From NCBI GenBank assembly GCA_903813345.2, contig CAIIXF020000011.1, positions 23,293,754-23,357,753 of the forward strand: a DNA stretch of 64,000 nucleotides, in the 5' to 3' direction. The notes under the pieces were generated by a model, which did not search any database, was not told the origin of the DNA, and saw nothing but the letters and a program-made list of their open reading frames with translations. This document shows, in pieces, positions 3,561 to 55,450 of the stretch. Source of the stretch: Owenia fusiformis. Lineage: Eukaryota; Annelida; Polychaeta; Sabellida; Oweniidae. The number at the start of each line of letters is the position of its first letter. Position 1 is the stretch's first letter. Made by a program: the position numbers and the translations under genes.

Positions 3561-3811
3561 TGATTCAAAATCTCTCCCACCCCCTTTGTTAGCTTCTGGA
3601 TCCGCCACTGCTTGCTACACTTAGTCTAATTTGTAATAGATTGATACGTTTAGCTTAAAACCTCTAAATATTTGTTTCACCCTAGATTTATATGTATTTT
3701 GTAGGCCAAGGTGAAAATCGGTGTGAAACCATTTATAACTTGATGTACATGAATACTATAGTTCTAACGTTAAAGAAGTAATAGTATACACACTGGCTGT
3801 CGAGTTCAAGA

Positions 3812-26545: not shown

Positions 26546-26795
26546 TTTCTTAAGCACTTCACTATGAATGCAATTTGATAGGTGTGTTAGGGCCTGTTTC
26601 TTCATAAATTAATTCTGGATAATGCATGGGAGTTTGCGTCCCTTATACTGGATGATGTTTATTTTTCTTAATGTGTTTTGTAACACTCCTTGGTCTGTGT
26701 ATTTCTGCAGTGTTCTCATCGAAATGTCTCTGACCGTCACATATATGACCTTCACATATAGAATGATCACGCATAACATCACAGCGCACCTACCA

Positions 26796-27274: not shown

Positions 27275-27726
27275 AAGTAAGCCAATCATTTAAAACGCCA
27301 TAGACCTTAGAAAAATTAGTATTACTCAAATCTATCTATAAGTTTTGATCAATCTATGGCTATCTTCTCGGTCCATGTATTATGTACCAAGACCCCACTT
27401 AAGATATTCTAACAAGGTAGAAAAAATACAGAGTGAATACCTGCAAAATCATTTGTCTTTGTCACTAAGGCTTCATATATAGCAGCATAACTATTCAAAA
27501 CCACCACTTTCTCACCAGCGAAGTCTAGTTTGAATATTTCTCCATAGATCTCCTTCAATAACATCAGTTCATTGTGTAAGTTTATTAGATCAAATTGCAG
27601 TAAATTTCCAAAGAGCGGTATTCCTTTTGGACCAGGTATCCGGGATAAGATCTTCCTTTTTGGATCCAAAAGTCGCCTGATTAAAAATATTATGACAACA
27701 GTAAGAGTTACTGTTATAATCCACAT

Positions 27727-31883: not shown

Positions 31884-34800
31884 ATGTCCTGTCTTAATTT
31901 TGTCGTTGTCATGTTGATGGTGGTTGTCATTAAGGTCAATTCTGAAGGTAGGAAGTAACAAGTTGTCTTTAAGAGTGACAGGTGAAACTGAATGATCGCA
32001 ATTCGCCATAATTTACAAATCGTACTTTCTTACAGTTCTACTTGTAATACGAACTTCCTACTATATATTACAAACTGGACACTAATACAACACTATGCCA
32101 AGAATAACAGTAATTTATGACTGAGGAATGCATTTGCTCAAATTATAAACAAGGCTGTATAAAATAATGTTCATTATAAACTAATCGAACTCCTTGACAA
32201 CTAATGACGTAGTGCGCAAACTTCTTAAAGCCCCCGTATGAAGTTTAAACCACTTTTGCTTATATTGTTGTTTTACCAAGTGTTATCAAAGTGTGATATG
32301 TGAACTTTTTTTTTTGGTTCATAAATAAGCGAGAAATGAGCTCACACATGCATGCAAATGGTTCAGAGAAAAGTGCATTTCAAAATGTCAATTCTCATAG
32401 AAACCAATGGTACAATAATATTTAAAACATATACATTCTTTTTTAACCTTGCTTGACAATCAACATTGGTTTATATTTAAAGGTTATACGTTTTTGACAC
32501 CTGAGTGATATCATGATGATGTCACTTAGGTTGCAAAATATTTTTGATATGCTAAGACATTGAAGGCACATTAGATGTGTGTCATTTGTTCAATCTTTGC
32601 ATTGGTGTTAAAATGTTAATGTTTTTGCACTGTATGGTGTGATATTTGATGAGTAAACAATTTACTTTTTTTTAAAAAAGCGAGAAATTTGAGTATTTGA
32701 GAAATGGAAAGTCATGACAAATAGTCACGCCTAACCATCGGCGTCAAAAAATAGCGGAGTACAGTTTTTTGTACGGTGACGCAAATCGACTGCTTTGGAG
32801 CAAAAACTATGACAAGGGTTCTAAAAATTAATTTGATGAAAACAAGTGCGATTTCATGTGAAATAAAAACAGCATTCTCTTAGAAATGGTTTTAACTTTC
32901 TAATTATTATATACTTTTTACGAGCACTGTTCGGATTTTTTCTGAGTGAATCGGCCCACATAATCGACCCAAGTGAAAAAGGTTGTCTTTTTCACATTTC
33001 TTTTGGTTTTTGTTTTCCCTGCCGTCTGAGAGTATGGATTATTTTTATGAGAATATGTATTTGTTAAATACACATTTTAGAACGGGCGAAGATTCAACAA
33101 ATAATCATTCATTGTGTATATTTAAAAAAGATCAGATTTGTACTCTGACGCATAAGCTGTACGGTGACGATTCATTATAATTTGTGAGAAGTAATATAAA
33201 GAACTCATTATTTATTTCAAATCGCATAAGTTTTAATGTGGAAGTTCAAATGTTGATCCAGTCCCTCGTATAAATGTTGTCAAATGATCAGTATCAGGCG
33301 AAAGTTACTGCAGTCACTTTTGAATTTAAGATGTTGGAAAGGAAGTGTCGATTTCGATACTTTTAATTTTATTCGAATTAAACTTCTTTATAGTTTGCGT
33401 TATGCTTTGATGATCTAAATGAGACTAAAATGAAATGAAATGGAAGTTCTGGAGTATGATCATTTGTTCATATATAATGCATGGGTGCCACAGTTCAACG
33501 ATATCTTCCACAGCTTAATGGAAGGTTACTGGAAATGTATGATACGGTAAGAATCATGAAACCAAAAACTCAGTATATTTGTTGCTATGCTATTGATGTT
33601 TTTAAACAAGTGATGTCACAAGTAAATCACATCTTGCACGTGTGACTTTTTAGGATGAATGTATGTATGTATGTATCTTTATTATTCCCACATCGAGGTG
33701 GATTTCATTTTCATTTATAATTATATTAGGCTACAAATACGATTTTGCTATTTAATAGCATAAAAATATAAAAATATAAACAATAACTACAATAACCTGT
33801 ACAAATTCAACGAATGACATGAGAACAGACTTATGTTCAATTTAAGTGTTTGGAAAGGGAGGTAAAAGAAGTATGTTGCTTTCCCTTATCAGTTGATCAA
33901 TATACTTTATATACATAACAGTTATTGTTGTGTTATCTTTGTTGAAATCTGATGTTCCGCAGATCATAGCACTGATGCTCGGTAGTTGTCTCAGTTCTGT
34001 TCCTTGTTTTTGGATTATTGACCTTATGATTACTTCTCTTTGAGAGTTGAAGTTGGTACAATTCTGAGAGATATGTGTCATGGTATCAGTATGTATTATG
34101 CCACAATTTTCGCATAGGGAATCCCTGTTTTCTAAAGGCAATGAGATCACTTTCGCCACTTTCAAATGATATCAAAGCATATCGTCAACTCTCAAATAGT
34201 TTGTTCCATGAAAACTAAAAAAATTGAAATTAGTACTTCCTGCCCGCCGCCTTAAATGCAAAGGTGACGGCCGTAACCTTCCCTTGATACTCACCAGTGA
34301 TAATGTACATGTAGATCTGACAAGTCTTTACCTTTTGTTCAAACAGGAAGCTTAGAGTTGAATGTGTTTCAGTATTTAATCCTTGTTATCAGAAAGGAAT
34401 GGAAACATAAGAATTGATCAGAAACAAGTCAAATTCTTTACTTCAGAGAATATTTTTATTTTAGAATTGATCTTTTACAATGTTGAATGGGATTCAACAT
34501 TTGAATTCCACACAAAAACTTATGGAATCTCAAGCTAATATATTACACTTCATAAATTTTAAGGAATCGTCACCGTACAGCGTGCGTCACCGTACACATT
34601 TGATCTTTTTTAAATATATACAGTGAATGGTCATTTGCCAAATCTTCATCTGTTCTAAAATGTGTAGATAACAAACACATATTCTCATTAAAATTATCCA
34701 TACTCTCAGACGGCAGGGAAAATAATAACCAAACGAAGTGAAAAAATGGGCCGATCCAGTCAGAAAAAATCTGAGCAGTGCTCGAAAATCTTTTATCATA

Positions 34801-37800
34801 ATTAGAAAGTTAAAACCATTTCTAAGAGAATGCTGTTTTTATTACACCCGAAATCGTACTTTTTTTCATCTAATTAATTTTTTTAAAACCCTCATAATAG
34901 TTTTTGCTTTAACTCAGTTAATTTTCGACACCGTACAGAAAAGTGTACTACTGTATTTTTTGACGCTGTACGGTGACGCCTGCTTCCGCGATGGTTAGGC
35001 GTGATAGTAAATGAATTATAAAAACTTAGTTTAAAACTTGGGGACTTGGGGACACTCTCCGAGATCTACATTTATCGCCAAATCATTAATATATTATGAA
35101 ATTGTTCTATGTGCGTGGATTCACCGATATCTGAGGTAACAGGGCGTTTGCGATGTGATTCATTTATGAGAGTCCACGTTCATATTGAATCACCTACATG
35201 TTGGATGAAGACTATATTTCATTCTAGGAACAACCAATTACCAATTACGATAATCTTCTAAACAAGCATCATGTACATTTATCATTTAAGAACAATTGAT
35301 GCCTCACAGACAAGTGCTCTGAGATGAAGTGTAATAATTTTGTTTACACGATCATCATCAATATCAAAAATCTAATGCATTACCTATGTTATTACCTATG
35401 CCAATGCAGCAAATGTATTCCCAGTGCAAATAGAGATTACTTATTGTAGTATCTATTAAATAATATAAGTGTGAGAGAAAAATTTGCTGTGTAAAGAATA
35501 TATACTATCAGCATGATCAACATGAAATAAATTGAGGTTATTTTATGGGAGGGGTGGAATATGAATTTTATTTCGAGGGAAATATGATATTGACCAAGGA
35601 AAGTATCATATTGACCGAGGGCGACAGCCCGAGAGTTAATATGATATTTTCCGAGGCAAATATCATATTTTATCGAGGAAAAATTCATATTCCATCACCT
35701 ACGACCATCGATAACCTATTTATTCCATAATATTTTTCTGAAACTTGCTTTGTATGTCGTCACCCAATGATGGGTTTTGAATATCAATTTTATTCCCTGT
35801 TATTTTCCCGGGGAAAACATGTTATTATGGAATAAATACAAATAAACACATTACAGCGTGTATTTATTTCAGTATGCATGTATATAGAATACAGGGCGGG
35901 CAATTGAATGCATCACATTTTTTGCTTAACTTACGTCTTTGATTTGAAGTTTAACATATGTAGAGAAATTTTCAAATTTTATAATTCCTAATTTTCATGA
36001 CATTTGGTTAATATCTGCTCTTTTAAATATAACATGTGTAAGTGTTCCATTTTTATTTGCCAACCTTGTATATAATTTTTAAGCAGACACCCTGATTTTG
36101 TAGAGTACAAAAAGGTATGCTATTTCACAAGTTGGTCACAATACAGACAAGGACCAGCGAGATTTATTCCTGAGAATATCGACCCGTCTCTTTGCACGCA
36201 CATCATCTATGCATTCGCTTACATAGACAAAAGAGCAAGTGATTACAGTAAACTGAGAGTGTTTGAACACAACGATGTTTGTAAGCATTACACTACTTAC
36301 TTTCATGATAAATCATAGCATTTTTCTCTCTCAAAGCAGGAATTCTATGATTCACGAAAATGTCCTGCATAACTTTAGAAAGTTATATATTCCGTAATCA
36401 AAACCTTATTGTATAATCATATCCTGAGATAAATCACAGATTCATCGCTATATGTACCAACACACTTTATACTGTACTTAAAGCTGCTGATGACAATTAA
36501 AAACCGATCAAATTTTCGATTGAAATTAGGAATTCTATCTCATAAACATCGTTGATTTATCATGCTTTCTCATTCATTCACCCATGATTCAACCTTGAAT
36601 TCAAGCCCTTGAATAAATCATTGAAAACTTGAAAAAACAATCGTTGAAAAACAACCTGTTTAAATATTACAATGTTATTTTGCTATGCCACTGTCAATGT
36701 CCAATGTTCATTATCAATGCACTAAATACAATAGACTAGATGCGAGTAGAAATCATCTTGATTTACGTCCTTAAAAATTACATCTAGAAAAGTGGTTTTG
36801 AAAAGAGTTTATTAACTTTGAAAATTACATTTTCTTTGAAAATGTGACTTCTAGGTCGATGAGATTCCTCATACACTGTTGATCCACTCGATTACGCTGG
36901 TTACCTCGTGGAACATCGAATGTACGATTTTTCTTTTTTTCTTATTTCACAAGTTGTAGGCAGAATTCCCACATGTTTATCACCTTCGACGTTCCGACAT
37001 TTTGTTACCGAAACGGCGTAATCGAGCGGATCACCAGTGCAGACCCAACATTGTAAAATCACAAAAAGTGAAACATCTTTTCTTGTGTTGGGCAGATAAT
37101 ATTTTCTTTTAACAGGACATATTTTAATTTGTATTACTATGATACATAAGGGGAATATGAAAAGTGAACCACTAAAACTGATGAATATTCAAGTTTTAGA
37201 GAACTGTGTAATACCCTGCCATGTTATTTCCCTCGAATCAACCACCTGGTGGCGAAACTGGTAACTTCCTACTCGCATCTGAGTAATTCAATGATGTTAT
37301 TTGCTCTTAGATTCTTAGATCAGAGAATAGTGCTTTCTCCAAAAACAACACATCTTGCATGGGGCAGATCCGTAGTAGGTGGGAAAATCAACTTAACGTT
37401 AATTTATTACAGCAATGTATCAAAGGATCAACTCTCTAAAACGACGTAATCGCTCACTGAAGACTTTGTTAGCAGTTGGGGGCTGGAACCACGGATCAGG
37501 TCCTTTCTCCATTATGGCAAATAATGCAACCAAGCGAAGAAACTTTGTGAAAAACTCCATTGCGTTTTTAAGACGGTATCGCTTTGACGGCCTCGATTTG
37601 GATTGGGAGTACCCAGCCCAACGAGACAGTACTAACATAAATACAGATAAAGTTGCCTTTGTGAAACTATGCAAGGTAAGAATGTAGTCCTAGATATGAT
37701 AGTAAATGAACACTTTCCAAGGACAAGTCGAAGACATAAAACAAAGCAAAATGCATATCATTGGAACAACCAAAGTTTCGTTGAAACAGGCATTATTGGG

Positions 37801-40800
37801 ATCTCGATCAATATAGTAGTTTCAATATAGTTTTGAAATCTCGCTAATTCTCGTCGTTTATCGTGTGATTTTAAGGGACTTGCACTTTAAACCTCTCACG
37901 ACTAACTTTTCTTTTTGAGTAGCATATTTGAAGTCAGTGAAAAGTTTTCCACAATAATTACTTTGATTTATACAGTTATGTCATTTAAATAATTTTCCAT
38001 GACCATGACATGAAAAATTTTAGGCCAGATCCCCATTACCGCAATGTAAGATTCTTTAAAACCAAGGTTTATTCGTATGACAACCAAAAACAGCATGATT
38101 CATCACAATATGTACATTGACAGGGTTTATTTAGTTTAATCTGTATTATCATCGAAGTGATGAATTCTTAATTGCAAAATTGATTTCTTTTTCAAAAATA
38201 CATTTCGTAATGCCATCCAATTATCTAAGACATGAATTCAGATTAATTGGCATAATTGATTAAAAAAAAGTCGCAGAATGTGATGCAGTATTACTGAAGG
38301 GCAGCTTAACATTGTTTTTCATTAATTAAATAAGATTATCAGTTTAGATAAATATCCTTGTTGAAAAATAATATTGTTTGGTTTGTTAAGACACGCAAGT
38401 CTATTTAATCGGTAAAGAATACAAAGGGTGATTTGCATGACATGTACCTACAACATTGTTCCGTTTTCTCCGTTCTATGGATGAATCAAACCAAGTAGTT
38501 TTTGGATCATTATCATATGCTTCCTCGTTAGAAGTTTATCTCTTAAATCATTTTTCATTTTCCAATTTTAGCGAGTGACACGTGTTTTTGAAATAAATTC
38601 TTCAAGTCTGTTTTAATAAATGATAAAGCACAGATAGCCGTCGCTAATCTATTAAACGCTATATATATTGATGTTGCATGTATAATCATATACATGTATT
38701 TAACATGATGTTTTCTCTTGAATAAAGGACCTGAAGAATGGTTTCCAGCGAGAAGCAAGATCATCTAGAAAACCTCGTTTATTACTGGCTGCTGCAGTTG
38801 GATGCGGGCCTCGAAACATTCATACATCATACGATGTGCGATCAATGTCAAGGTATGTTTGGTTAGTCAAATAAACTTACCGAGTTTTCCGTCTTTTCAG
38901 GAAATGATTAAGTTAGTTCAAATGTCAAAAATTTAGCGACGCCCCCTTCAAGCCTTCACTTTATTATGTGATCTACTTCATTTGATATGACACGTTGTAG
39001 GCACTTGGATTTCATTAACTTGATGACGTATGACTTGGCTGGCCAATGGGATGGTAGAACTGGAATCCATGGAGCTCTTCATGGTGCACCTGGTGATGCA
39101 TCATACGAACTGAATCAGGTATTGTGTAGGATGAATAAAATATTTCTTCATCCTAGGTATTGTTTATAGTTTGCAATTTGCTTATGGAACTTATGATTAA
39201 ATGGCATCCCGAAATAGTGTAAATTTGAAATCAAATGGTCAAAATATTCTTGTTGAGAATCATATCTTTGCTTATATATCATTCATTGCCATGCCTTTTC
39301 TAAAAAATCAAAACTTTTGTTTTTATTTCGATTTCCACAAAACACAACGATTGATAAGGGTGCCCCTTTTAGTTTAAACTCAGCATACCTTCGCTGTGTC
39401 ATGAATCTCACCGGGTACTACTTGTGACCGTCTAAGGTATTGGATACACGTTACTTTTAAGGAATGGTCGGTAAATAGGTATATCGAACTTGGTGCCCCA
39501 AGAAAGAAACTGGTGCTTGGAATTCCTATGTATGGTCGATCATTCAAGTTGACAAGTGGTAGTTCAGATGTCGGTGCACCTGCAGCTTTCTCGGGTGCAA
39601 TTGCTGGTCCCTACACAGTACAATCTGGTATCATGGCCTATTACGAAGTAGGTTGTATTTTTTCAATGATTTGGAATACAAGTCAAATTTAGCGAATGAA
39701 AGCTATATAGAGGTTTTAATCATTTGATAATTTCTGTATAATGTTATTTATATCCCACCCTAAGCAGACTTTATTCCGCAGAAATGGTATGAATAACACG
39801 AGGGAACGATGCGGAACCAGTGGTCTTTTACAATCATGTTCATATATGATCGTTGACACTCAATAAAAAGGAAATAGTGGAAATAATTTTGTAATTAATT
39901 TCAAGATATCTAAAATATGATCCTCGGCTACTAACCTATAATACCGTGTGATATGTCTCGATGTATCACTTTTAAATAGGTTTGTGCGAAGATCAAAGCA
40001 GGTTGGGAGTACAAGTTTGACCCATTGCGGATGGATTCATACAGTTACAACGGCACAGACTGGGTAGGATTCAGTGACAAAACCAGTGTTGCTAAAAAGG
40101 TAATTTTACCACAAATGCATTTTTTCCAAAAAGTAGCCCAGGTGCATAAATAGAGATTATCCTATATGAGGTTCAGGATATTGGGATTATCCCGAAGCCA
40201 ATATAATATATCTGCCCGAGGGCCGTAGGTCCCGAGGGTAGATATATTATATTGGCCAAGGGATAATCCAAATATCCTGAACCGACTATAGGATGATCTG
40301 TTTATCCCATACCAATCACATTTTTCAATTGGCCACAGTTCAGAAACTTTGCAACCAACTGTGGAATTATTTTTAAATATTCATGTCCAGTTTTGTATTC
40401 TTGTCCGTAGCCGGATTTTCCTGTTCAAATCTTTGATTATTAACGGGGCATACTGCCCCTTCCCTACTTTAAAGCATCAAACAGATCGCGATTGTCTGCG
40501 TTTTTGTCCATTGTCGTTTACAATATGCGAGCGTTACAAACAAAGAACCAATACGACGGGAACAGCGATTATGACGTAGCGGGCAGATATACTATATCTG
40601 CCCGCTAGGAGCGGGACGTAAAGCTATATCTGCCCGCTGATGAAAATATAAGTTTTTACAAACCGGCTTTATGTACCTGTAACACCTCCAAGTATGGGAT
40701 AAATAATTGTCTCTGTGCTTGTTTCTGTGTTTTCAAATTATTAAACGGCTGCAAATAGAACTAATACAATTATAAAATACGTGACAAAAACACTATATAT

Positions 40801-43800
40801 TTTTCCATAAATTTGAACATAGGCTGAGTTCATTAAGGCCAAACGTCTTGGTGGTGCCATGATCTGGTCACTTGATTTTGACAATTTTAAAAGAAATGCG
40901 TTATGTAACACGGATAAAGAAGATTTCACCTTATTGAAAACGATCAATAAGGTCTTAGATGGAATAGTTGAAACAACCACTGCAGCAACTGTAACCACAA
41001 CAACAGAGCCAGAAGACGTTGGTAAGTGTGTTCATAATATTTATCTTCAAAGTGTTTAAGGTATATCCTAACTGGACTACCAAAGAGTGTTACAAAACAC
41101 AACAAGATAAGGGAATATCGGGGGAGTGTCTAAAGTACAAGTATTATACAAATAGTGACTGCCATTGAGGGCAATAGTGTAAATTATTTCCCCGAGGGAA
41201 TATCCTCTACGATGTACTATTCCTGAAGCCGCAGGCTGAGGGAATAGTACATTGTAGAGGATATTCCCAAGGGGAAATCATTTACACTATTGCTCGAAAT
41301 TAGGCAGTCACTATTTGTTTTATTATATATCCTATGCTGACTCTTGTCCCGTTTCCTCTGCGAAGGCCAAAAAGGCTTAGAAAGCCCCCTCCCCGGGTCC
41401 ATTGTTAGCATTATAAGCTGTGACGTCATCAGATGCTCAACAGAAATTTTTGCCTCTGAGACTCTCACTTGACAAATTCAATCGCGTTTAACACGCGGAA
41501 TAGATTATCATAACACTCGAAATTACACAGACGTATTGAGCTTAGGGAACTTTATACACGTTGCTTATATTGTATCGTTCACGCACGTCTGTCATGGTGA
41601 ACGGAGTTGATTTGTGTTTGTGCTCATCCTCCATTTTTCTGTTTTTCGTCTGCGCAGTGATGATGCGCAGACGTTTCCAAGGGTAATAGAAGTTGCAATC
41701 GTGACGTCAGCGGGCAATAGTTCAAATGTATATTCCCGCTGACGTCACATTTGAGGGAATATAACTTTCCGAGGGAAATAGTAAATCTATTTCGGAACAC
41801 GTGACTAGGTATTGACCAATCAGGATTAGTGTTACATATTGGGTATATAATAAAATGTAATAATTGGGGAAAAACTCAATATATCAAACTTTGCTCTGAA
41901 TTCTTTGCACCACCCGACCCTCCGCTCCATTCAGGAATAATTATCACAATCTAAATCCACGAGACAATGGGGCATTTTATTCATTTCGAACTCAAAACAA
42001 ATCGTAGGGGTAAGGATGTTAATCTTCATCTCCAGAACTCAAAAAGGTGTGCTATTATACAAGTTGGTCACAGTACAGAAAGGGAGCTGGACGGTTTCTG
42101 CCTGAGGATATTGACCCATCTCTATGCACCCATATCATTTATGCATTCGCTTACGTGGACACCAGGATAAACTCTTACAGTTATAGTGGACTGAAGGCCT
42201 ATGAATACAATGATGTTCGTAAGTATAAAAATGTCGATTCAAGGATTTCTACAATTAACGTGAGTCAACATTTGGAGTTCAATGAGTGGCCTATTTTTTA
42301 CAATTTTGAGTTTCATGAATTGAAAATATTTTAAAAAGTACATCTTCCGATCACAGGGCTTCAAAATCCAGAATATCTTCTTTCTTTTTACCCCCTGCGA
42401 TAAGCAGTTAGCATTTCCCCGATTAAGAACTCGCAATTTGATTCGCTGTCGCAACATTGCGACAGCAATCAAGTTTACGTCATCGGCGTATAGTTAGATC
42501 ACGTGATTCAGTTTTATCGGGCGCTTCCAAAGTGGTTATAGCAGGGGGAAGAAGGAGGTACGGATTCTTGACACCTGCTTAAGAGGATGAAAAAGTAAGA
42601 TTATGGTAAGATTTAAGCATATTTTCAAAGATCTAAACTTAGGCAATGGCCAATATGTTCTTTCAGATTTTAGGGAACATAAAACATTAAATTCCTATTT
42701 TTCACTATCATTTGTTCTCATTGAATTGTAGAAATGTATGAGAGTATTAACGCCCTGAAGAAACAAAATCCTTCACTGAAAACATTGTTAGCAGTGGGGG
42801 GCTGGAACCATGGATCTAAACCATTCTCCTATATGGCTAACAGAATGGCCAATCGCAAGAATTTTGTGACAAATTCTATCAAGTATTTGAAACGGTATGG
42901 CTTTGATGGGTTATCTTTGGATTGGGCATATCCAGGACAACGAGATTCAAACAGCAGTACTGATAAAGCCGCTTTTGTAGAACTATGCAAGGTATGAATA
43001 AAAAAGTTTCATTTTTGAATATTTTAAGAGTATAACACTGCAAACATTTCTCAGGGTTGATTGAACATATCAACCTTAATTCACCCTTGAATTTCCCCAA
43101 GTATTACTTTAACCATGATTGTGTGTTTTCAATAATTATCAAATTATAAAGTATGTAGTCACCCTCCTTACTTAATCATTTGCAAATTGCAAAATGTCAG
43201 TTTTGGAAAGGTAATATCAATTTAAAATATTTTTCCTTAATCAAGGACATGAAAGCTGGCTTCGAGAAAGAAGCAAAATCCTCTGCTGGACCTCGCTTGA
43301 TATTGACTGCCGCAGTTGGATGTGGACCTAAGAATATTGAAACATCATATGATGTACCTGGAATATCTAGGTATGTAGCTTTGTTTTAAAACAAACCCCA
43401 AATATCCTAAACTATGATCTTCAGTTTTGCATTGTATAATCCAGATTGTTATTTGTGATATAACATATCACTTTTGTAGGTATCTCGATTTCATTAACTT
43501 GATGGCTTATGACTTAGCTGGCCAGTTTAGAACAGGGATCCATGGAGCTCTTCACAGTGGACAAGGGGATGCATCGCTCGAGCTGAATCAGGTATTGCCT
43601 TGGCCTGTGAAATAGAAATAGAACATTTTTCGATGTTTTTCATTTTCCAGGGTTTCCATACATTTATAAAGTGACCTTGTTCGATTGATTAATAGTACAA
43701 AAACGTCATTTCGAAGGACAATATGGTGAAGTTTTGGACCGAGCGCCGTTACCACCGTTAATGACCAGGACAGAAACAACGAGAAAATCTTACACACTGA

Positions 43801-45859
43801 ACGATATCTAATTTCACGGGAAAAATTGCTGGTCAAGAATGCAATTAATTCATATTGCTCAGGTCGATATAGTAAAATAAATACCTTCTAAACTAACACT
43901 AAAACCCCTAGAACTGTCCCGGGAAGGTGGTAATAATAATACGTATTCGGTGCTCTTAAAAACACCGATCCAGATTTAAATTGAAAATGAATATTGACAT
44001 TAAAATACAAATAGCATCCTTTCAGGAATGGTCTGTAAAAAAGTTTATCGAATTGGGTGCACCTAAGAAAAAGCTGGTGTTGGGAATTCCTTTGTTTGGT
44101 AGATCGTACAAGTTGAGAACTGCAAATTCAGCTATCGGTGCTCCTGCGACTACAAAGGGTGCTATCGGTGGCCCTTACACAGTGGAACCTGGTTTTATGG
44201 CATATTACGAAGTAAGTTAATTTCCTAACAAACAAATATTCAGTGCCTTATTGCCAAGTGCATGTTGTTGTTGTTTTCTATTCATTCCTCAATCTGTGCA
44301 TTAATATTGTCTTTTAGCTCATTAGCCAATCAAAATCAACGTTTCGTTGAAGTAGCCCAATTAACATCTAGAATATCATGAATATAAAACGCGCGTCTAA
44401 AAACGCAACAAACCATTGGTACCTGTTACACTGCTGGGTTGAGTCTAACGAAGCATTTTTGTAACGAAGGTTAGCGAAAAAATTGTGTCCACACTGGCTT
44501 TATCCAACCCTAACGAAGCAATTATTTGGTGTTACACTGCACTTAAAATGCTTCGTTGCGCGTGCGCATTACTCATCTGCCCCACCCACTTATTATGATT
44601 AATATTTCTATTCTTTTGATATAAACCATTGATCAAACTCAAAAATCTAATTTTTAATCTTTATTTTAACAAATCAGCACAGAAAAAGACTAGTTCAAAA
44701 TTCTCGGGAAAATAAAACAAGATGAATGTGATCATTCCGTACACTTGTCCATACATTTTCCCTATCATTTCGATTTTTATATATTTCAGCTGTCAATACG
44801 ATTACAAGTATTGTTTTCATTTTCTATCATTTCCTTTGGAAAACATGTGGAATAAAAATAGGCCTATGTTAATTACTAGGAGGAATTGGATTTGGGGTTT
44901 ATTCAGACGACTAGTATGTAATATCGTATAAAAATGTTCAATTTCCAAATAGACTTCTCAGTTATATTTCAAATAGTGTAGCCATTACTAAAATATCTCG
45001 GTGTTCGGCTGGTGGTTTAACTCACGCGGTCCTAACTTCGATCGTTAATTTGAATTTTCGACCTACCAGATGTGAAAATCAAGGATTGCGAGTCTCATAC
45101 TGCACCGTTTTTCTTCAAACCTATACCATTAAAAGCAAAACAAAATTCCCTTTCTGTCGGTGCATTACTTTATTGTAAAGAGTCCCTCATTCTAGCAGCG
45201 TTTTGGTCCCCAGTTGTTAGAAGGCCTTCTTACAGCTGGGGACCAAAATGCCGCTGGAAGTAGGGACTCTGTTTAAGAGAATAATGTACCATCAGAAAGG
45301 GATTTTTGTTATGCTTTGAATGGAACAAGTTTGAAGAAAAACGGTGCAGTATGAGACTCGTAATCCTTGATTTTCAAACATCCGGTAGGTCAAAAATTCA
45401 AATTAACGGTCGAAGTTAAGACCGCGTGTAACTACTATTTCATGACCAATTCATTTTAATATGAATATTACCCGTCTCGCCAATACTCCATGCATATTTG
45501 AGTGAGTTTGACATAAATTAGTATGTTAATCCATAAGCCGTCTGTTGAATTCGAAAATGGCGCAAATAGGAAGAAACTTGAATATCAGTTGTAAGCATCG
45601 TCTTACGACACATCAATAGTGTTTGGGGCTGGCCTTAAACATGCAGCCTCTCTGTGGCAAATATCTGTCGACAAGAAACAGTTTTGGCCACCGTTCCTTG
45701 TCCGCAGGTTTTACGGAAGTTTTACGGAAGTTTTGAAACGTAATTAATTCAATATATTTAAACATGAAGTTTAAATTCAATTACAATTTAAAATCGTCGA
45801 AGAATAAAATAATGGAACGACTATTTTCGAATCAATCAAATCGGCTATATTCCCTGATG

Positions 45860-45890
<31 letters not shown>

Positions 45891-48800
45891 GAATTTATTC
45901 ATTCAAACTTATTAGCAAATACATAATTCCAATCGCCCGAAGGCATTATAGGAAAGATGGACATTTAAACAATATATATTAATACATATAATAAATCATA
46001 ATAGTACACTATACAACAGGTTAAAGGGGATGCACTTGTAGGGTGGGGATAGGGGAGGGGTGTTTGGAGGGGAGACTAAACAGGTTCACTTTAGGAGGGA
46101 ATTCAGATATTGGCAGAAATAAAATCAGCCACTTTGGACAAGAGTTGCGAATTTGTTTCTAAAGGTAGATCAGGATCTCCATAATAGAATAAAGAAAGTA
46201 AATCAGCTTGATTTTTATGTTTATTAAAGGCTCCTGGTGCAATCAATTCAATGTCATTTTTTAATGTTTGAAAATTCAATTCATTATTTGGACATTTCAG
46301 AAAAAAGTGCTTTGGCGTACTGGTAGCTCCACATGAGCAATTTGGGCCATCAATAAAGGTAAAGTTATGGGCGTATAGTTGAGCCCTAAAAAGTAAATCA
46401 GCTCTAAGTCTGTTTATGATTATTTCTTGTTTTCTTGTCAAATTAAGAAAGGTAGATGGTAGAGTGAGTTTTTTGGGAGCAAAATAAGTTTTTTGATATT
46501 TTTTGAAAGTCTGAAGTGTCTTCTTTTCCCTGATATATGATGGCAGCATTGACCATGAACTGATTGCACCTAGGACTGCCGACTCCAAGAATCTGTTGCT
46601 ACAGCGGATAGGTAGCTTGAAGTCAAAAGTGTTACGATTAGTTCTAATGCTTTTATTTTTGTACTTCTCAAAGATCTCATTTAGATATACAGGATTTGTT
46701 CCATTGACAACCTTGTACATATTCCCTGATGTGATTCACCGGGAAGCAATTGTATCAGTATCATGGTATTAACACCTTTAGAACACGGGCTTTAGAATTA
46801 CATTCAAGGTATAATTATTCGAGGCGCAAGAAAAAATTAATATTAAACATGTATGCCACAACTTTCTATTTAGTAAGCATATCTTATGTAATTTCAAAAG
46901 TTTACCCTTCCACACTTGAGACGGAGTTTGCCGAAAGAGGGACATTTAAATATTCTAGGTTTATTCTCTAATAGATCAGATAAACGTTTCAAAACTACCG
47001 TATACATATACGGTAAAACCTGCGTTTTTTAGATTTAATACTTTTTGTCATATCAATGCGAGGAAAGGCAGGGAATCGAATGAAATGCTACGAAAGACGG
47101 TAAATCACATTTGTACGTGGCGTTTAGGGCTTGAGTTAGCGTCAATCAGTGACGCAAATAGGTAATTATTTTAATCAAAACGTAGCATTATAATAATACG
47201 TACTTAAAAACATGCTCTTTCCTCGCGATTCCTCTCATTTAATACAAAATGATGAATGTGCTCTTTATTACGCGCATGCGCAAACCGCCAACTAAGCATT
47301 TTCTAACGAAGCTACCTGTTACACAGGCCAAAAAAGCTTCGTTGGGAGCTAACCTTCGTTGAATTTTCTACTCAATTGCTTCGTTATCAACTAAGCTTTT
47401 CCAACGAAGGCGGAGGTGTTACACTGGCCCAAAATTGCTTCGTTACGAAGCTTTTTGTCAAATTGCTTCGTAACGAAGCATTTCAACTGGCCTGTGTAAC
47501 AGGGGTCATTAACTCGTTATACCAAAAAAAACATTCATCATTTCCTTCAATGAACCAGTAAGTAACTTCCCTACTCTTTGCAATACTATTACTATTCGCA
47601 ATAGTATGTTATTGGTTCACATCGTGTCATGGGTGACCGGATAAGCTATCGTTTTACATAGTAGGCAAGAATCTGCCCAAGACCAAGTGAAATACAATTG
47701 TAAAAATCAGTGCTGATGGTAAGGCACATCCTTCTTCAAAGGACTTCATGTAAATTAATGGAAAGAAGTGGAATACCCACGTGTAGGACATAGACCAATC
47801 AGAGAGTGAAGAATATGACAGTGATATGATAATACTTGTCGCTTGACTTGAATAAAAAAGTTTTCTAAGAATACCATATTTCTCATATTACTAGGTTTGT
47901 GCCAAACTTAAAGCAGGTTGGAGGTATAAGTTTGATTCGCAGCGTGGAGACCCGTATGCTTATTCTGGTTATAACTGGGTAGGATTTAGTGACAAGACCA
48001 GTGTAGCAAAGAAGGTAATCATTACACAAATATAAAGCCTCTGACCTACATTCACAAATATGCCTGGAAAAAGCTTTTCAATAATGCTCCATATACCACT
48101 GTCTCAAATCAGGGAAAAATTCCCATATGTGCGAACAAATTTCACGAAGTAAAATCTTATATTATATATTGCATACACGTACGTATGTCCAATAATGTAA
48201 ATTAAATATATTTCTTGTTAAGGCTGAATTCATCATAGATGAAGACCTTGGTGGTGCCATGATATGGGCCCTCGATCTGGACAATTTTAACAAAGATTCA
48301 TTGTGCAACACGGATACAGAGGATTTCCCACTGTTAAAAACCATTAATAAAGTCTTTGACACTGCAGGTATATACACAACAACAATATCATTATGCAAGT
48401 GGATCTCAGTTAATCAAAAACATTTTCATTTTTATTTTAACAACATAATTTGTTATTTGAAATCCTACCTCTCTTTCAGTACCACACCAAAATAGCTATG
48501 AACCATGGTAATGAATATAAAAACTAGATAGTGTGCTAGGTAATCAGTATTAAGAATCGTACAAATTCTTATGGGATCAGCTGAATCAGCACAAAAAAAC
48601 ATACTAGCTGGATACTTTGTCTGAACGCTTTAACATAATCGAACGCATTTTACAGATCAACGGAAGTTGTTCAAATGTCCATCCACACCAGTTTATCGCA
48701 AGTACCAGACCTCTGATTGTACAAAGTACGTTACTTGTCTTAATGGGGAAAACTATGGAACCAAGCCCTGCAGGAGTGGTCTACTTTTCTCCGAGTCCAA

Positions 48801-51800
48801 ACAACGATGTATTAGCAAAACCTATGTCAAATGTGGTAATAATCCATTGTATTCTTTATACATTTTTTTTATTGCATCTTTCTTACACAAAACATTATAC
48901 ATAATATACATACAGATCAAATCCATATACATTGAATATTCAATAATATTATTACATATTTATATTTAACAATTATACGTTTTTACGCTTTTCAGACCAT
49001 CTCCATTCAGAGTATTTAATTTAACTTAATTTAAAAGGGTACCATTTGAAATACAATACATGCAATACGATTATCTTTCAATCGTATTGGGCTGACAATA
49101 TTTTAATATAAAGGGTATAAAATAAAACAAAAAATTCAATGCTGTTGGTTTAATCTATCTATAACCCATCTCCAAGTCTCGCCGAAACTTTCCAGTGTGC
49201 CATTTAAGTTTGCAATATTTCGTTCGTCATTGATTTTGTATTTTATGATTTCTTTTATTTGCATAAATGTTATTTTACTATTAATGAGTCTTGATTTATG
49301 TATTAAGCTTTTTATATACAATATACAAAAATTAATTGCTTTTGAAGTGTGGTCCCGTTCTTGATCTAATTTCCCGACAATTATGTCTTTAATTGTAAGA
49401 TTAATATTGAAAAAAATTTTAAAGTCATCCCAAATCTTGGCAGAGTTTGGGCACTCTATGAAGAAGTGTATCGTATCATCTATTTTATTTTATCGTTTTT
49501 ACAAAAGTCGCATAAATTTGAATTTTTTATTTTCTTTCGAGTTAAAAAAGTGGTTATTTGGTGTAACGTTTAAAACAAGTTTGTATTGAAGGCATTGTAT
49601 TCTCGGTTCTCGAACCGTCTTAAAAGGTAATGTAAAAATGTGTTTCCAATCTTCTTCTGTAAAGTTGAATTTTGAATTTAGATATTTTTTCCCGTTGGGT
49701 TCTTTAAATAAATTATCTACGAGAATCCAATATATGGTTTTAGTTGTTATAGATTTGACGTTTATTGTCGTGTTTTTGATTTGGAGTTCTTCGTCTTTAA
49801 GTGCCTTGTTGCTTCGATTGTTTTTAATATGTTGTTTCCAGGAGTGTGGAATTGCATGAATTAAGCCATAGAAAGTAACGAAAGGTGTATTAATATTATA
49901 TTTCAAAGAGAAATCTTCGAAACCTAAGAATTCATTATTGTTAACGAGATCTTTTATTTGAAGGATTCCTTTACCTATCCAGCTTGCATAATTTAGGGTT
50001 TTGTCGTTAATTTTTATGAACTCATTATTCCAGATATACTCTTTTAAAGCAAGTTCTTTATTATAGGGCTCTTTATTATGTAATAATTTCCAGGTTTCCA
50101 TGATATTATAGTAGAAAGGGGGTAACCTGGCTAACTTGTCATCGGGAAATTTTGAATGAAATATTGTGTCCGAGTCTAGATTAGGAAAAAAGCTGTAGAA
50201 ATATTGCTTCCATTTGCTAGGCTTCTTCTGGTATAATCTTTTTACCCATTGTATTTGTAAAGCTTTTATTTGCGTTTCAAAATGTAAGCTCTTGATTCCC
50301 CCTTTTTCAATTTTTCCTATGGTTGTTAAATTACTTATTAATGGAGGTTTTCTGTTCCATAAAAAGTTATTAATGAGATTTTGAACATTATTAATGATGT
50401 GTTTTGGTACAAGTATGGCTGATGCTAGATATGTTAGTTTTGAAATCCCTAGAGCTTTGATCAACACGTTTTTTCCTATTAAGCTAAGGTTCCTCCATTC
50501 CCATATTTTAAATAAGTTTTCTATAGATTTAATCTTAGGAGAGAAGTTAAGGTCATTCCGTTCGTTTATATTTTGACTAAACCATACTCCAAGGGTGTAA
50601 AAATTTTCATTATTGATTTTAATTTTTGAGACGAGACTTTTTGGTGCAATTTGTGGGGGTGATGTTTTAAAGAGACCTAACCATCTTCCTTCTGTTTTCT
50701 GAAGGTTGGGCTTGAGGCCAGAAATTTCAGAGAATCTTTTTAGAATCTGAAGGGCATTTTCAGTTGATGCAATTGAATCTAGGAAAAAAGTTGTATCGTC
50801 CGCAAACATTGAAAGTTTAATCTCAGTATTATTCAAAATAATGCCTTGAATATTTATATTTTGTCTCTAGATAAAGCTAGTATTTCCGCCACTATTATGA
50901 AAAGGTATGCCGATAGGGGGCATCCTTGTCGGACTCCCCTAGAAGGTGAAAACATAGTCGATTGGTATCCGTTGTTTGGATATACACGTTTGAGCGTTTT
51001 TGTAAAAAGTTTTTACCCATTTGATCAATGTATTACCAAAATTGAATAAATTAAGAGCTTTCTCGATGAAATTCCAGTTAACGGAATAGAAGGCTTTCTC
51101 AAAATCGATTTGAAGGAGTATTCCGTGGATGTTACCTTGGTCTGTGTATTCTAAAATATCTTCTATAATTCTAATGTTTTCCCCTATGTATCGATCTGTT
51201 ACATATGCAGATTGGTCGGTATTTATTATGGATGTTAAGGTTTTCCGTATTCTGTTAGCAATTGATTTGGTGCCTATTTTATAGTCGGTGTTTAAAAGGG
51301 TAATTGGTCTCCAATTTTTGAGGAATAATCTAATTTTATCTTTTTTTGGAATTAAGGTGACAACTCCTTGTTTTTGTGAGATAGAGAGTTCTCCAGACTC
51401 AAAGCCATAATTCAAACTATCGACAACTAGATCTTTAATATTAATCCAGAAAAACTTGTAAAAAGTTAGTTGTGAAACCATCAGTACCAGGAGACTTATC
51501 ATTTGGCATATTTTTGAGAGATCGAGCACATTCTTCAATCGTTAACAAGCCCTCGCAAGACACCTTTTCATCTTCAGTTAACTTTGGAATATTCAATTGT
51601 TCAACAAAAATATCTATGTTTGGCGGTAGGTCTTCATTATTTAACCTTTCAGTGTACAAATTTTCGTAATATCTTTTTTGTTCATTTAAGATTTCTTTAG
51701 GGTCGTTTATGATTGTACCATTTTCAGTTTGTAGTTTTTGAATGGTTTTGTTGATGTAGTTGCGGTGTTCTAAAGTAAGGAAAAATTTGCTGTTTATTAT

Positions 51801-54800
51801 GTATTCTTTATACATGTAGCACCTTTCTTGGTACCCCATTTTCACTTGGTACCCCATTTTTTTAAATCGCGTTCCTTGAAGGAACTGGTCAATAGAATTA
51901 TAAAATGGAATATGTTTTGCAATATTTATTACAATTATTTATACTTTATACTTATGGGTTATTACTGGACAACGAATACCTTTTGTGTTTGCGCATTGTA
52001 AGCGTGTTGAAATGCTGCACTTTTGAAACTTCCCATTTACAGTAGCATACCAATGTTTAAACCCTTACAAAAATGAATGACATTAATGTGACATTAATAT
52101 ATTTTGCTCGTGCATGTATTGTCAATATCTCATGCAATAAACTGACGATTTGAACTAACTTATATTTAATTCATATCTGCCATCATGTGTAGCATTATCT
52201 GTAACAAACCACGTGATTTAAAGATGTGTCCTGTTCAAATGACAATATTGCAGCTGACCTTGAAGGTAAAGCTCTTGAGCCGATCTCGAGGGTAATGATT
52301 TCTGCAAATCAATAGAGAGCACGAATAGAGAATTTTATTTAACATGTTTCTAATACAAAAAGTTGAACTTGAATATTCAATACATTTATTTCCCTTAATC
52401 GAACAATTATGTTTGGGTGGACTTATTAAAGGACGGCAGGTGTTATGTGTGAAAATGTCTTTTAAAGTTAAAAGAACATCATACAATCAGAAATGTATTT
52501 GTCAAATTCTGATAAAAGCCCTAAAACACTCGATGTTTTGATTTTTGTCAATTTAAAGTCCCAATTAATATACTTCTTCTACATTAAATAATTTTAACTT
52601 ACTTTTTGCGCATCATGGGAAATCTTTCGATTCAGGAACTTACGAACAAAGTTATTCCTCCAATGTCTAAAATACATTTAACATAACACTTGTTGTCTTT
52701 TAATACATTTGGGTTCTTAAAAACTTTGAATTAATCTCTCCATAAGTTTGGCAACTGAAAGTCCTATTTTGGATGACTCATCCAAGCCGTTGATCATTGT
52801 CGATTAGGAAATATTCATCAAATTTGTCAAACATTTTCAAGCTATTGTACATGGTGTTCCAAAGGTAACAAGGCTGGTGCTGGCATTCTGTCAATTCTGC
52901 ACCGAGTGTCTTCAAATTTTCACAAATTGTAATAAACTACAATGCAACTAAAATTGTTAAGTCTCGAAAATAAATTATTAAATGCGGGTAAAGTTGTGGC
53001 TACTATAGTAACATGACATCACAATACCCGGGGCAACTTTTTCATGAAAATGTGTTATCCAATATTTTTGTATTACTGAAGATAGTATCTAATTCACCTA
53101 TTACAATACAACATTTCTTGTTAGTTTTTAGTTGCTTTGTTGTAATGGTGTTGCTATAAAACTCAGGTTCAAGTATGATTTCATAATAATAATGATATTT
53201 TTCTCAATTTCCGGGAATATGACTATGTATAGCAGTTTGCAAAATTCACGGTTGAGTTCTTGAAAAGACCCAATTTGAAGCCAGTCATCCACCTTGATAA
53301 CGCGCCTGTCCGCAAGTGAGCATTAAAGACAACTACAGCTATAGAGAGGCAAGGTATTGAGGTCTAAGACCATGCATCATACTTTTCTGATCATGCAATA
53401 TCAAATTTTTACTTGTATGGAGAATGGAATGCTAATCTTCACGGTAAGACCATTTAAAGATGAGAATGGCCTTCTCCAAGCTGTCCAATTGATCCTGCGT
53501 GACATGTCATTAAATGGGTTCACTCATGTGTTTGAGTCATGGATACAGAGTGCTACTCTTGTACTGACAAAAGAGGAGCCTACTTTTCAAAGTAGAGGAT
53601 ACATAGAAATATCAAATGATGTAAAGCAAATGCAATCCCGACCAGTTGTTGCATTTCAACTTTGATATGGGATATACAAAATTGTTAAAGTCTCTGTACC
53701 TTTTTGCATGCAATGTTGCCCAGGGTATTGTGATGTCGTGTTCCCGTAGCAACCATAACCCTACCCGAGTTTCATAATTTCTGTCGAAACGTTGCTGTTT
53801 TAATTAGGATACATGAAAGTACATTCTGGGAAATTTTAAAGACGATTGATGCATATTGAACAAAATACCAGAACCAGCCCTGTTACTTTTGGAACAGCCT
53901 GTAATCAATATATGAAATTGAGATTCAAACGTTGACATTCGTTGATATGATATCGAATGAAAACTTCAAATTGCCAAACCTATGGAGGGGAGCGTAAAAG
54001 ACCTTTGGAATTGACTATAAACAGAAACAAGGTATGAAGTAAAATAACTCTTTGTAATAAAGTCAACATTGAATTGCAGAAATTATAACTTTGAAATGCC
54101 ACCCTCTAACCTTGGCATATTTCACGTGGATATTGCATGTCAACAATTTGATACTATTTACATATATGTCCAAATAAATCAAATCAAAGAGGAAACAGTA
54201 AAGTATACTTGTTTAAAGCCACCCAGGAGTTGTCAAATTCCAATGAAGGAACAAGTTCTTTAAATCGATAAGCAATTCAAAACTATTAATTTCTATATTT
54301 TTCAAACACTGTATTAAAAAATGTTCCATTGTAATTCAAAATATGATGTTAATATGCTGCAGTCTTTTTAGGCAAAGCGTGGGAATCGCTTGTCCCGTGT
54401 GGTGAAAAGAACTTTGGATCAACTGTAAATAAACCAATATATAGAAATAAACAATTAGAATTGAGTATTCAATTCCCGGTTGTTAATGAAAAAATATCAT
54501 TGCATCAAATTTGGATTTTATTGTTGCAGATGATACCACAACTGTCAAACCAACTGTCACAACAGTTCCGCCAACCCCGTCCACGAAAGGTAACTGTTAG
54601 TTTTGCTGCTAGCCTTTATTTAAAGGTACCACACAGAGTGGGCTAAAATCGTCCCTATTTTTATTGAGCGATTAGCTTTTAAATAACTATTACGGATTTT
54701 CACCTTCGCAGAACTCAAGTAGTTATAAGTAAAATAAAACAAAACCCCAAGTTATCTAATGTATATTAAAATGCAATCGTATCTTGATTTTATTGTTTCA

Positions 54801-55450
54801 GCCTTTACTTCACCAACTACCACTACGGTCTCACCAATTACAGCAACCCAGGCAAAAGAAGGTATGTTTTGTGACAAATGAAAAATTCAAGGTGGCAACC
54901 TAAATATTTTGAATATTGATCTCAATGAATTCCGACCTTTATGAACACATTTGCCAAATCATTTTTAACTTAAAATTCCGACCTCATGTTTTACAGATAG
55001 ACATCAACGAAAATCAAGTGAAGTTTTCAAATGTCCATCCGGACCATCTGCACCAGTTTACAGAATGTACCAAGATCCTAAAGACTGTACTAAGTTCATA
55101 ACTTGCCTCAGTGGCACAAACTTTGGTACCCAGTCTTGTCCGAGTAGTTTATTGTTTTCCGAGCCTAAGCAACTGTGTGATAACAAAGAAAATGTCAAGT
55201 GTGGTGAGAAATTGTTGACGTAGCAAAATATAGATAGCGTTTGGTACATCGGGTGTCCAAAAAGTGAATCGCTTTTTGACACGCATTTTCTCAGGAATTA
55301 ACTTTTTTGGTACACCCGATATATGAACATGTTATTTTAACTATATGTATACTACCATTTGTAATATGTTACTGTCTGCATTTGGTTTTTCATCAAACAA
55401 TGCTGACATCATGTGTATCACTATATCATTCTTCTTGTATTTCAGTGTGA
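31884..55450 (+). CDS. Tandem two-GH18 chitinase with two CBM14 modules, 20 exons
   Basis: Exons: 31884-31947, 36104-36280, 37413-37675, 38728-38852, 39001-39118, 39462-39647, 39980-40099, 40823-41021, 42036-42218, 42732-42991, 43246-43370, 43480-43591, 44026-44211, 47895-48014, 48223-48367, 48656-48835, 54530-54589, 54802-54861, 54997-55203, 55446-55450; 2895 nt, 964 residues, phases agreeing throughout. Order: signal peptide; GH18-1 ([21 protein letters not shown] 139-146; [12 protein letters not shown]); Thr linker; GH18-2 ([21 protein letters not shown] 537-544; [12 protein letters not shown]); CBM14 (C-P-S to VKC, six Cys); two Thr/Pro linker exons; second CBM14. GH18 hydrolyses chitin with the last Glu of DxxDxDxE as acid; domain 1 keeps it (codon 37607-37609), domain 2 has Ala (42926-42928). 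The two halves are joined because the second has no signal exon and enters in the phase left by the first. The short last exon is the least sure. Confidence 0.83.
32722..35006. repeat. 2.3-kb foldback element with about 450-bp arms
   Basis: AGTCACGCCTAACCATCG at the left end is inverted at the right end as CGATGGTTAGGCGTGA. The arms match for about 450 bases with moderate divergence (CCCTGCCGTCTGAGAGTATGG and its inverse, AGAAATGGTTTTAACTTTC and its inverse). The word CACCGTACA recurs in both arms. The loop carries a LINE fragment. It sits in intron 1 of the chitinase. Confidence 0.8.
33660..34170 (-). mobile_element. LINE 3' fragment (ORF2 C-terminus)
   Basis: A minus-strand frame of about 107 codons contains a C-x2-C-x8-H-x4-C zinc-knuckle-like motif ([19 protein letters not shown]) followed by FNSQRE, typical of the C-terminus of non-LTR reverse transcriptases. 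It runs into a 3' end bearing AATAAAGATACATACATACA, i.e. a short microsatellite tail as in CR1/RTE-type LINEs. The reverse transcriptase domain is absent, so this is a 5'-truncated copy lodged in the loop of the surrounding foldback. Confidence 0.6.
35555..35694. repeat. Hairpin repeat with CGAGGG...CCCGAG core
   Basis: TGGAATATGAATTTT is inverted as AAAATTCATATTCCA, and the centre reads CCGAGGGCGACAGCCCGAG with ATATGATATT blocks on both sides. The unit is about 140 bp. Related hairpins with different arms lie at 40155-40298 and 41149-41317. Confidence 0.75.
36731..37282. repeat. MITE copy B with a nested palindromic insertion
   Basis: It has the same AGATGCGAGTAG inverted ends and interior as copy A (29852-30197) but is about 200 bp longer. 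The extra part is a separate inverted-repeat unit at about 36879-37034 whose ends are TTGATCCACTCGATTACGC and GCGTAATCGAGCGGATCA. The copy ends 130 bp before GH18 exon 3. Confidence 0.75.
40155..40298. repeat. Hairpin repeat, second copy of the CGAGG-core family
   Basis: GATTATCCTATA is inverted as TATAGGATGATC, and GTTCAGGATATT as AATATCCTGAAC. The centre reads TCTGCCCGAGGGCCGTAGGTCC followed by CGAGGGTAGATAT. It is in chitinase intron 7. A small related palindrome (GCGGGCAGATATACTATATC and its return) follows at about 40579-40605. Confidence 0.75.
41149..41317. repeat. Hairpin repeat, third copy of the CGAGG-core family
   Basis: CAAATAGTGACTGCC is inverted as GGCAGTCACTATTTG, with GCAATAGTGTAAAT and ATTTACACTATTGC inside. 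The core is TTCCTGAAGCCGCAGGCTGA. It lies in the intron between the two GH18 domains. A further palindrome, GTGACGTCAGCGGG ... CCCGCTGACGTCAC, is at 41701-41748. Confidence 0.75.
42341..42589. repeat. MITE with CATCYTCCGATCACAGGGC end, longer copy
   Basis: CATCTTCCGATCACAGGGCT at the left and ACACCTGCTTAAGAGGATG at the right form short inverted ends (CATCYTCC / GGAGGATG in the cleaner copy). The 249-bp unit lies between GH18-2 exons. The ends match the 71-bp copy at 55899-55969. Confidence 0.7.
45018..45431. repeat. 414-bp palindromic element
   Basis: Two arms of about 205 bp are nearly perfect inverted copies (AACTCACGCGGTCCTAACTTC at the left; TTAAGACCGCGTG at the right). They meet at GGTCCCCAGTTGTTAGAAGG and CCTTCTTACAGCTGGGGACC near 45206-45246. 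This low divergence suggests it is young or maintained. It lies inside the 44422-47503 element. Confidence 0.85.
45860..46718 (-). mobile_element. 5'-truncated LINE insertion with target-site duplication
   Basis: A minus-strand open frame (46103-46720, 205 codons) is the C-terminus of a jockey/CR1-like ORF2: [10 protein letters not shown], then [10 protein letters not shown] and the knuckle [16 protein letters not shown]. It is followed on that strand by a 3' UTR and a poly(A) of about 26 (T-run at 45860-45887). The 13-base ATATTCCCTGATG is duplicated at 45847-45859 and 46719-46731, bounding the insertion. The intact frame, long tail and perfect duplication indicate a recent retrotransposition. 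Confidence 0.88.
49120..51860 (-). mobile_element. Decayed LINE ORF2 (L1/Tx1-like reverse transcriptase)
   Basis: Minus-strand frames 51857-51441, 51538-50939, 50836-49499 and 49321-49136 are consecutive parts of one reverse transcriptase separated by frameshifts. Motifs in order: [56 protein letters not shown] (bridging two frames near 50930), [11 protein letters not shown] (catalytic DD kept), then HFFIECP and a C-terminus ending VIDRLNQQH. The endonuclease region is missing, so it is 5'-truncated as well as frameshifted. It lies in the 5.7-kb intron between the first CBM14 exon and the linker exons of the chitinase. Confidence 0.85.
52850..53901 (+). mobile_element. Decayed mariner-like transposon
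   Basis: TA dinucleotides flank the element (52848-52849, 53902-53903). Ends CATGGTGTTCCAAAGGTAAC and GTTACTTTTGGAACAGCCTG are inverted. The interior, in broken plus-strand frames, retains mariner transposase pieces: VIHLDNAP, then [19 protein letters not shown], then [12 protein letters not shown]. Frameshifts and stops abound. It sits in the same large chitinase intron as the LINE at 49120-51860. Confidence 0.8.

Follow-up and report, generated by a model that had tools for sequence, protein, structure and literature searches.

INTRODUCTION

In the available parts of the published accounts, chitinases with more than one GH18 domain in one protein are described from several animals. The insect group II chitinase OfChtII of Ostrinia furnacalis (ChtII/Cht10) contains five GH18 domains, three of which (N1, N2, and N3) have Val, Asn, and Gln in place of Glu and are presumed inactive; the dead domains have been proposed to act as anchors, and a Glu-to-Leu mutant of one active OfChtII domain has been crystallised with substrate bound (PMC5827449). 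The oyster chitinase Ca-Chit ('molluscan chitinase 3') is represented by one cDNA encoding two tandem N-terminal GH18 domains with two active centres, a Thr-rich region, and a membrane anchor (PMC4457423). Insect chitinases with two catalytic GH18 domains in one protein (PMC5786006, PMC5891080) and crustacean chitinases with several GH18 domains (PMC8002005) are also on record, the oyster protein Cg-Clp1 is a CHI3L1 homologue (PMC1945033), and the predicted opossum model c_214.85 has two GH18 domains that align with the separate human genes CHI3L1 and CHIT1 (PMC1945033). Here, we analysed a 64,000-nucleotide stretch of contig CAIIXF020000011.1 (the window), in which positions 31884-55450 of the forward strand probably encode a live chitinase fused to a retained pseudoenzyme. 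A first-pass annotation of this locus had omitted two close precedents, the insect group II chitinase and the two-GH18 oyster chitinase, from its comparison.

RESULTS

One open frame across two GH18 domains

Twenty coding exons at 31884-55450 (+) yield a closed frame of 964 residues followed by a stop. To rebuild the model, we relied on conserved protein blocks and splice sites, with exon boundaries picked at GT-AG sites compatible with the homologous blocks, and all 19 introns are GT-AG. The modules follow in the order signal peptide, GH18-1, Thr-rich linker, GH18-2, CBM14, two Thr-rich exons, CBM14, and a five-base last exon. The rebuilt model thus recovers two GH18 exon sets in a single 964-residue frame, one signal peptide (31884-31947), and two CBM14 modules, as the first-pass annotation had proposed. 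The features are as follows.

31884-31947, +: coding exon 1, signal peptide (21 residues), ending in phase 1 (exon model, signal-exon scan)
36104-41021, +: GH18 domain 1 (GH18-1), seven exons: 36104-36280, 37413-37675, 38728-38852, 39001-39118, 39462-39647, 39980-40099, 40823-41021 (exon model, PF00704 match)
37586-37609, +: catalytic motif DGLDLDWE of domain 1, intact (read from exons)
41022-42035, +: intron joining the two domains (exon model)
42036-48367, +: GH18 domain 2 (GH18-2), seven exons: 42036-42218, 42732-42991, 43246-43370, 43480-43591, 44026-44211, 47895-48014, 48223-48367 (exon model, PF00704 match)
42905-42928, +: dead motif DGLSLDWA, D136S codon at 42914-42916 and E140A codon at 42926-42928 (read from exons)
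43526-43528, +: F in place of W-D-G after DLAGQ (W218 position), an in-frame net loss of two codons (alignment)
44095-44097, +: Y267F in domain 2, GIPLFGR versus GIPMYGR (alignment)
48656-48835, +: CBM14 module a (exon model, Pfam)
54530-54861, +: two Thr-rich linker exons, 54530-54589 and 54802-54861, each phase 1-1 (exon model)
54997-55203, +: CBM14 module b (exon model, Pfam)
55446-55450, +: last coding exon with stop (exon model)
56727-59770, +: gene 3, the next tandem GH18 unit, used as paralog control (exon model)

The two domains share their exon structure: the first six exons measure 177/183, 263/260, 125/125, 118/112, 186/186, and 120/120 bases in GH18-1 and GH18-2, and the seventh (199 versus 145) differs by the Thr-rich linker, which is included in the last GH18-1 exon (40823-41021). 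Pfam Glyco_hydro_18 (PF00704) matches both halves over nearly the whole profile, with 317 bits for GH18-1 and 289.3 bits for GH18-2 (cut-off, 29.6), and CBM_14 (PF01607) scores 58.7 bits for the protein (cut-off, 22.1) and matches two C-terminal stretches. A PDB search returned AMCase and chitotriosidase as the best solved-structure matches for both domains, and CHI3L1-type chi-lectins and insect chitinase chains were also matched; among the matched entries, 5wup and 5wvf are presumably domains of a two-GH18 insect chitinase. The three GH18 units of the window are about 44-49% identical to vertebrate AMCase and chitotriosidase. GH18-1 and GH18-2 share 70.9% of their residues and 73.4% of their nucleotides, and GH18-2 and gene 3 share 73.4% and 77.5%, respectively. 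A five-sequence protein tree pairs GH18-1 with GH18-2 (ultrafast bootstrap, 88), whereas identity places GH18-2 closer to gene 3. When viral contigs were scanned using domain 2 as the query, no relative came up.

The catalytic centre of domain 2

Residue numbers follow the chitotriosidase scheme, with positions mapped via alignment. Domain 1 carries the active-chitinase motif DxxDxDxE with its catalytic Glu (DGLDLDWE), as well as MTYD, and these intact residues suggest that it cleaves chitin by the usual GH18 mechanism. Domain 2 reads DGLSLDWA at the same place. Its codon for position 136 is TCT versus GAT/GAC in the two paralogs (2-3 base differences), and its codon for position 140 is GCA versus GAG (2 base differences); since both changed codons differ at two or more bases from both paralogs, the dead motif is no simple base-call error. 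Both motifs had been reported in the first-pass annotation and are borne out by direct reading, and the WDG described there as missing after DLAGQ proves, more precisely, to be replaced by a single F. The W218 and Y267 positions are therefore both Phe in domain 2. The family barrel with its catalytic Glu lost is what defines a GH18 pseudoenzyme, and domain 2 has this combination at the level of sequence. With the proton donor missing, it should not cleave chitin by the GH18 mechanism.

The rest of the cleft is mostly kept. According to the alignment, domain 2 retains the positions Y27, W31, F58, W99, N100, D138, M210, Y212, D213, R269, and W358. Altogether, 114 of the 120 sites that are identical in CHIT1, AMCase, domain 1, and gene 3 are retained in domain 2, the six lost sites being D136, E140, W218, Y267, F271, and K348. 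The equivalent counts are 114/118 for domain 1 and 114/118 for gene 3, and domain 2 is thus unusual in the location of its losses, not in their number. Its losses fall on 4 of 15 cleft residues versus 2 of 105 others (Fisher p 0.002), or on 4/21 versus 2/99 (Fisher p 0.009) when all 21 invariant positions of the cleft list are counted; the four cleft losses were already apparent when the list was drawn up, and both values are descriptive only.

Purifying selection on domain 2

A codon model was fitted to 357 complete codon columns of the three GH18 units of the window; the other 40 of 397 columns, which have gaps or lie in the gene 3 stretch after its frame shift, were left out. The ratio of nonsynonymous to synonymous substitution rates (dN/dS, omega) was 0.19 for domain 1, 0.20 for domain 2, and 0.29 for gene 3. 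The profile interval for domain 2 was about 0.13-0.32, and an omega of 1 costs 15.8 units of log likelihood (lnL; 2 delta lnL, 31.6) and is rejected. A separate omega for domain 2 fits no better than a single one (lnL, -2947.39 versus -2947.42), and when only the two exons bearing the catalytic motif are analysed, the domain 2 value is 0.26. A neutral final part of the domain 2 branch could cover at most about 16% of its length (lnL drop, ~1.9). The seven exons of domain 2 are free of stops and frame breaks, as the first-pass annotation had stated. In 1,000 simulated trials with substitutions only, the frame of domain 2 stayed open in 9.8% after 0.05 neutral substitutions per site, and in 0.2% when insertions and deletions were added at one tenth of the substitution rate. 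Domain 2 has been under purifying selection over its branch as a whole and is not visibly decaying. A dN/dS near 1 on domain 2 had been named beforehand as the outcome that would speak against its retention, and the three window paralogs give no such value; the reading of domain 2 as a retained pseudoenzyme thus finds partial support, from the loss of the catalytic Glu and from purifying selection.

The junction between the domains

The stronger argument for a single gene is the missing start of domain 2 rather than the matching exon phases. The frame of the first domain 2 exon is open upstream only to 42023 and has no in-frame ATG. In the joining intron, four stretches of 31-139 bases run from an ATG to a phase-1 GT; only one of them (41594-41672) is hydrophobic, and its donor would have to be GTTTCC. 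The fused model uses nothing but GTA and GTG at its 19 donors, as does gene 3 at seven of eight, the exception being GTTGCA, and both known signal exons (31884-31947 and 56727-56790) are strongly hydrophobic and have GTAGGA and GTAAGG donors. When the whole + strand of the window was filtered for hydrophobicity and a GTRNG donor, six candidates remained; three rows are the two signal exons, and none lies between the domains. Because the GTRNG filter would miss 7 of the 19 fused-model donors, the argument rests on the four unfiltered candidates, and judged by these features domain 2 is without an evident start of its own. The matching phases, from which the first-pass annotation had argued for fusion, do exist; however, they carry little weight, because the signal, linker, and CBM14 exons of the cluster have phase-1 boundaries, which would tend to join neighbouring units in frame anyway, and we rejected them as proof. 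A tblastn search with the window's own CBM14 modules (E up to 1) found no CBM14 between the domains; other kinds of 3' exon were not searched for. The joining intron also contains a foldback element at 41143-41323, with arms at 41164-41230 and 41234-41300 that are 85% complementary.

Ends of the gene and its long introns

An acceptor-like TTTATTACAG stands immediately before 31884, and the homologous exon at 56727-56790 is likewise preceded by CTGTTTTTAG. A 5' untranslated exon upstream of 31884 is therefore likely, and for the same reason an in-frame alternative start at 31848 was rejected. At the other end, the fused model closes with NVKCV and a stop, no membrane anchor is visible by eye, and an AATAAA follows the last coding exon at 55518. 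Reverse-transcriptase remains lie at 49136-51938 (-), inside the intron between the two CBM14 modules; the part at 49499-50866 matches RVT_1 at 4.9e-05, below the Pfam cut-off, and the remainder was judged by eye. A further retroelement-like frame, also seen by eye, is located at 46103-46735 (-).

Neighbouring GH18 unit and other features

Gene 3 has its own signal exon (56727-56790) and an intact DGLDLDWE, and it therefore exemplifies how a separate unit of this cluster looks. Its exon 58209-58322 is frame-shifted, with a length of 114 versus 118 and 112 in the other two units, and gene 3 is either a young pseudogene or the bearer of a base error. The CBM14 exon that follows it (60650-60813, +) reaches a stop before the expected end of the module, with the end in another frame, which is a second apparent frame shift. 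Further downstream, phase-1 exons at 61220-63756 (+) encode a Thr-rich array of 81-base repeats, two EGF-like stretches, and a stretch resembling a cuticlin N-terminal or ZP-type domain, all Pfam matches there being below cut-off. These exons may mean that gene 3 was formerly a chitinase with EGF and ZP modules, or they may belong to a separate gene cut by the window end.

Elsewhere in the window, two cytochrome P450 genes lie in opposite orientation at 3785-9863 (+) and 23198-27870 (-); Pfam supports the calls in one frame each (3785-4369 and 23758-24132), and the remaining frames were assigned by eye. Between the frames of the first P450 gene, a 28-base tandem unit with AAGGTAAGT (a consensus-like splice donor) is repeated about 11 times in two adjoining stretches at 7654-7977 (+). 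A C-type lectin domain frame is present at 10526-10855 (-) (Pfam Lectin_C, 2e-06). An open frame of 446 residues at 16286-17623 (-) has a Pfam SOCS box near its C-terminus and no other match above cut-off.

DISCUSSION

Taken as a whole, the locus is best explained by two tandem chitinase genes that merged, giving a live barrel and a retained dead barrel that tethers it to chitin; we hold this explanation with somewhat better than even confidence. Several points weigh against it. A GTT donor is possible in the cluster, as the gene 3 model uses one (GTTGCA, in one of eight donors and in the exon with the frame shift), and the hydrophobic ATG stretch at 41594-41672 could then serve a second gene. 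Reading through past 41021 meets a stop ending at 41059, and an AATAAA follows at 41849; a short form with GH18-1 only could therefore exist, and exon 1 could also be spliced straight to 42036 in the same phase, yielding a protein with domain 2 only. The changes at W218 and Y267 may have weakened sugar binding by domain 2, and the contrast between cleft and other sites depends on a list drawn up after the losses had been seen. The selection test compares paralogs rather than orthologs, and relaxation confined to the last part of the domain 2 branch would be invisible to it.

In one rival reading, an active chitinase gene and an adjacent chi-lectin gene with a start of its own have been misread as one. 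The exon phases of the cluster would permit such false joining, the AATAAA at 41849 and the hydrophobic ATG stretch would fit it, and the single opossum model spanning human CHI3L1 and CHIT1 (PMC1945033) is, in the part of that account available, a precedent. The same intron sequence argues the other way, since the hydrophobic stretch needs a donor of a kind absent from the fused model and nearly so from gene 3, the first exon of domain 2 offers no in-frame ATG, and the search with the window's CBM14 modules left a first gene without such a module of its own before domain 2. We consider this reading unlikely. One gene could also produce isoforms, the full form alongside a short active one with its poly(A) site in the intron after 41021 and a chi-lectin with domain 2 alone. 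The relevant junctions are all in phase 1 and the stop and AATAAA lie within the intron, but AATAAA occurs about 1.28 times per kb on the + strand, and one in an intron of ~1 kb is expected by chance; we give the isoforms a similarly small chance.

A decaying domain 2, recently killed and carried along by its live partner, would account for the loss of the catalytic Glu and the middle Asp and for the reduction of W-D-G to F, and the apparent frame shifts of gene 3 may mean that decay is under way in the cluster. It is nonetheless very improbable: omega for domain 2 lies near that of domain 1 and below that of gene 3, seven unbroken exons contrast with the small share of simulated frames that stayed open, and both catalytic codons carry at least two changes against both paralogs. 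Still less credible is an assembly artefact joining two loci or haplotypes. The gene 3 frame shifts could be base errors and thus signs of an imperfect assembly, whereas the window contains no N, the order and orientation of the domains are regular, and the two domains are too far apart to be haplotypes, with differences at about 27% of the aligned coding bases.

Under the merger of two tandem genes, the front gene would have supplied the signal peptide, the active GH18 barrel, and the Thr-rich linker, and the rear gene, which has no evident signal exon, would have supplied the second barrel and the CBM14 tail, both presumably read from a single mRNA. The rear barrel has lost its acid/base Glu and middle Asp to substitution, along with two more cleft residues, and keeps most of the other inspected residues of presumed sugar contact; it probably still holds chitin chains without cleaving them. 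The product would be a secreted chitinase acting in cis, in which, by analogy with insect ChtII, the active barrel is most likely kept on chitin by the dead barrel together with both CBM14 modules. In a more specific version, which we put forward tentatively and regard as rather unlikely in all its parts, read-through from one tandem gene into the next, across symmetric phase-1 exons, joined a live chitinase to a chi-lectin in an event separate from the origin of the multi-GH18 chitinases of arthropods; the catalytic centre of the dead barrel was then reshaped while the rest of its cleft stayed, which made it a chain-holding clamp that lets the active barrel act repeatedly on one chitin fibre. 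If the gene is expressed as read, it is a natural experiment, within one polypeptide, on what a dead glycosidase domain contributes to a live one: the barrels are ~71% identical, and the neighbouring third unit, whose motif is intact, can serve as a comparison. In an animal other than an arthropod, the locus would also add a further lineage with a live-plus-dead chitinase arrangement and would bear on the retention of pseudoenzymes for binding.

Among the titles and abstract openings listed in searches of open-access literature, none described a mollusc chitinase that pairs a live with a dead GH18 domain, and the opossum model c_214.85 was the only such case outside arthropods; this does not prove that others are absent. 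As far as the available descriptions extend, a close likeness is with OfChtII, in which a Glu-replaced GH18 domain, active GH18 domains, and chitin-binding modules also occur in one protein. Unlike OfChtII, and unlike the insect group II type as defined by five GH18 domains, dead N-terminal ones, and CBM modules, the protein predicted here has two GH18 domains, the dead one comes second, and Asp136 is lost besides Glu140. Ca-Chit shares the two tandem GH18 domains and the Thr-rich region, but its type is defined by two active domains and a membrane anchor, whereas here the second centre is dead, no anchor is seen, and the model ends after a CBM14 module; no CBM14 is mentioned in the available part of the Ca-Chit account. 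The two-GH18 insect chitinases are likewise described with two catalytic domains, in contrast to the one dead domain here.

Full-length vertebrate AMCase and chitotriosidase consist of GH18 and CBM14, and the present protein differs from them in that they have a single GH18 domain. Like the chi-lectins (CHI3L1/YKL-40, Cg-Clp1), domain 2 is predicted to be a GH18 barrel without chitinase activity, and it matches CHI3L1 in the PDB search; its motif differs from that of YKL-40. Chi-lectins are described as separate proteins, whereas here the dead barrel has an active partner in the same predicted chain. Neither a dead GH18 domain in cis nor a chitinase with a pair of GH18 domains is new; what distinguishes the present locus is their combination, with the live domain first, the dead domain second, and two CBM14 modules.

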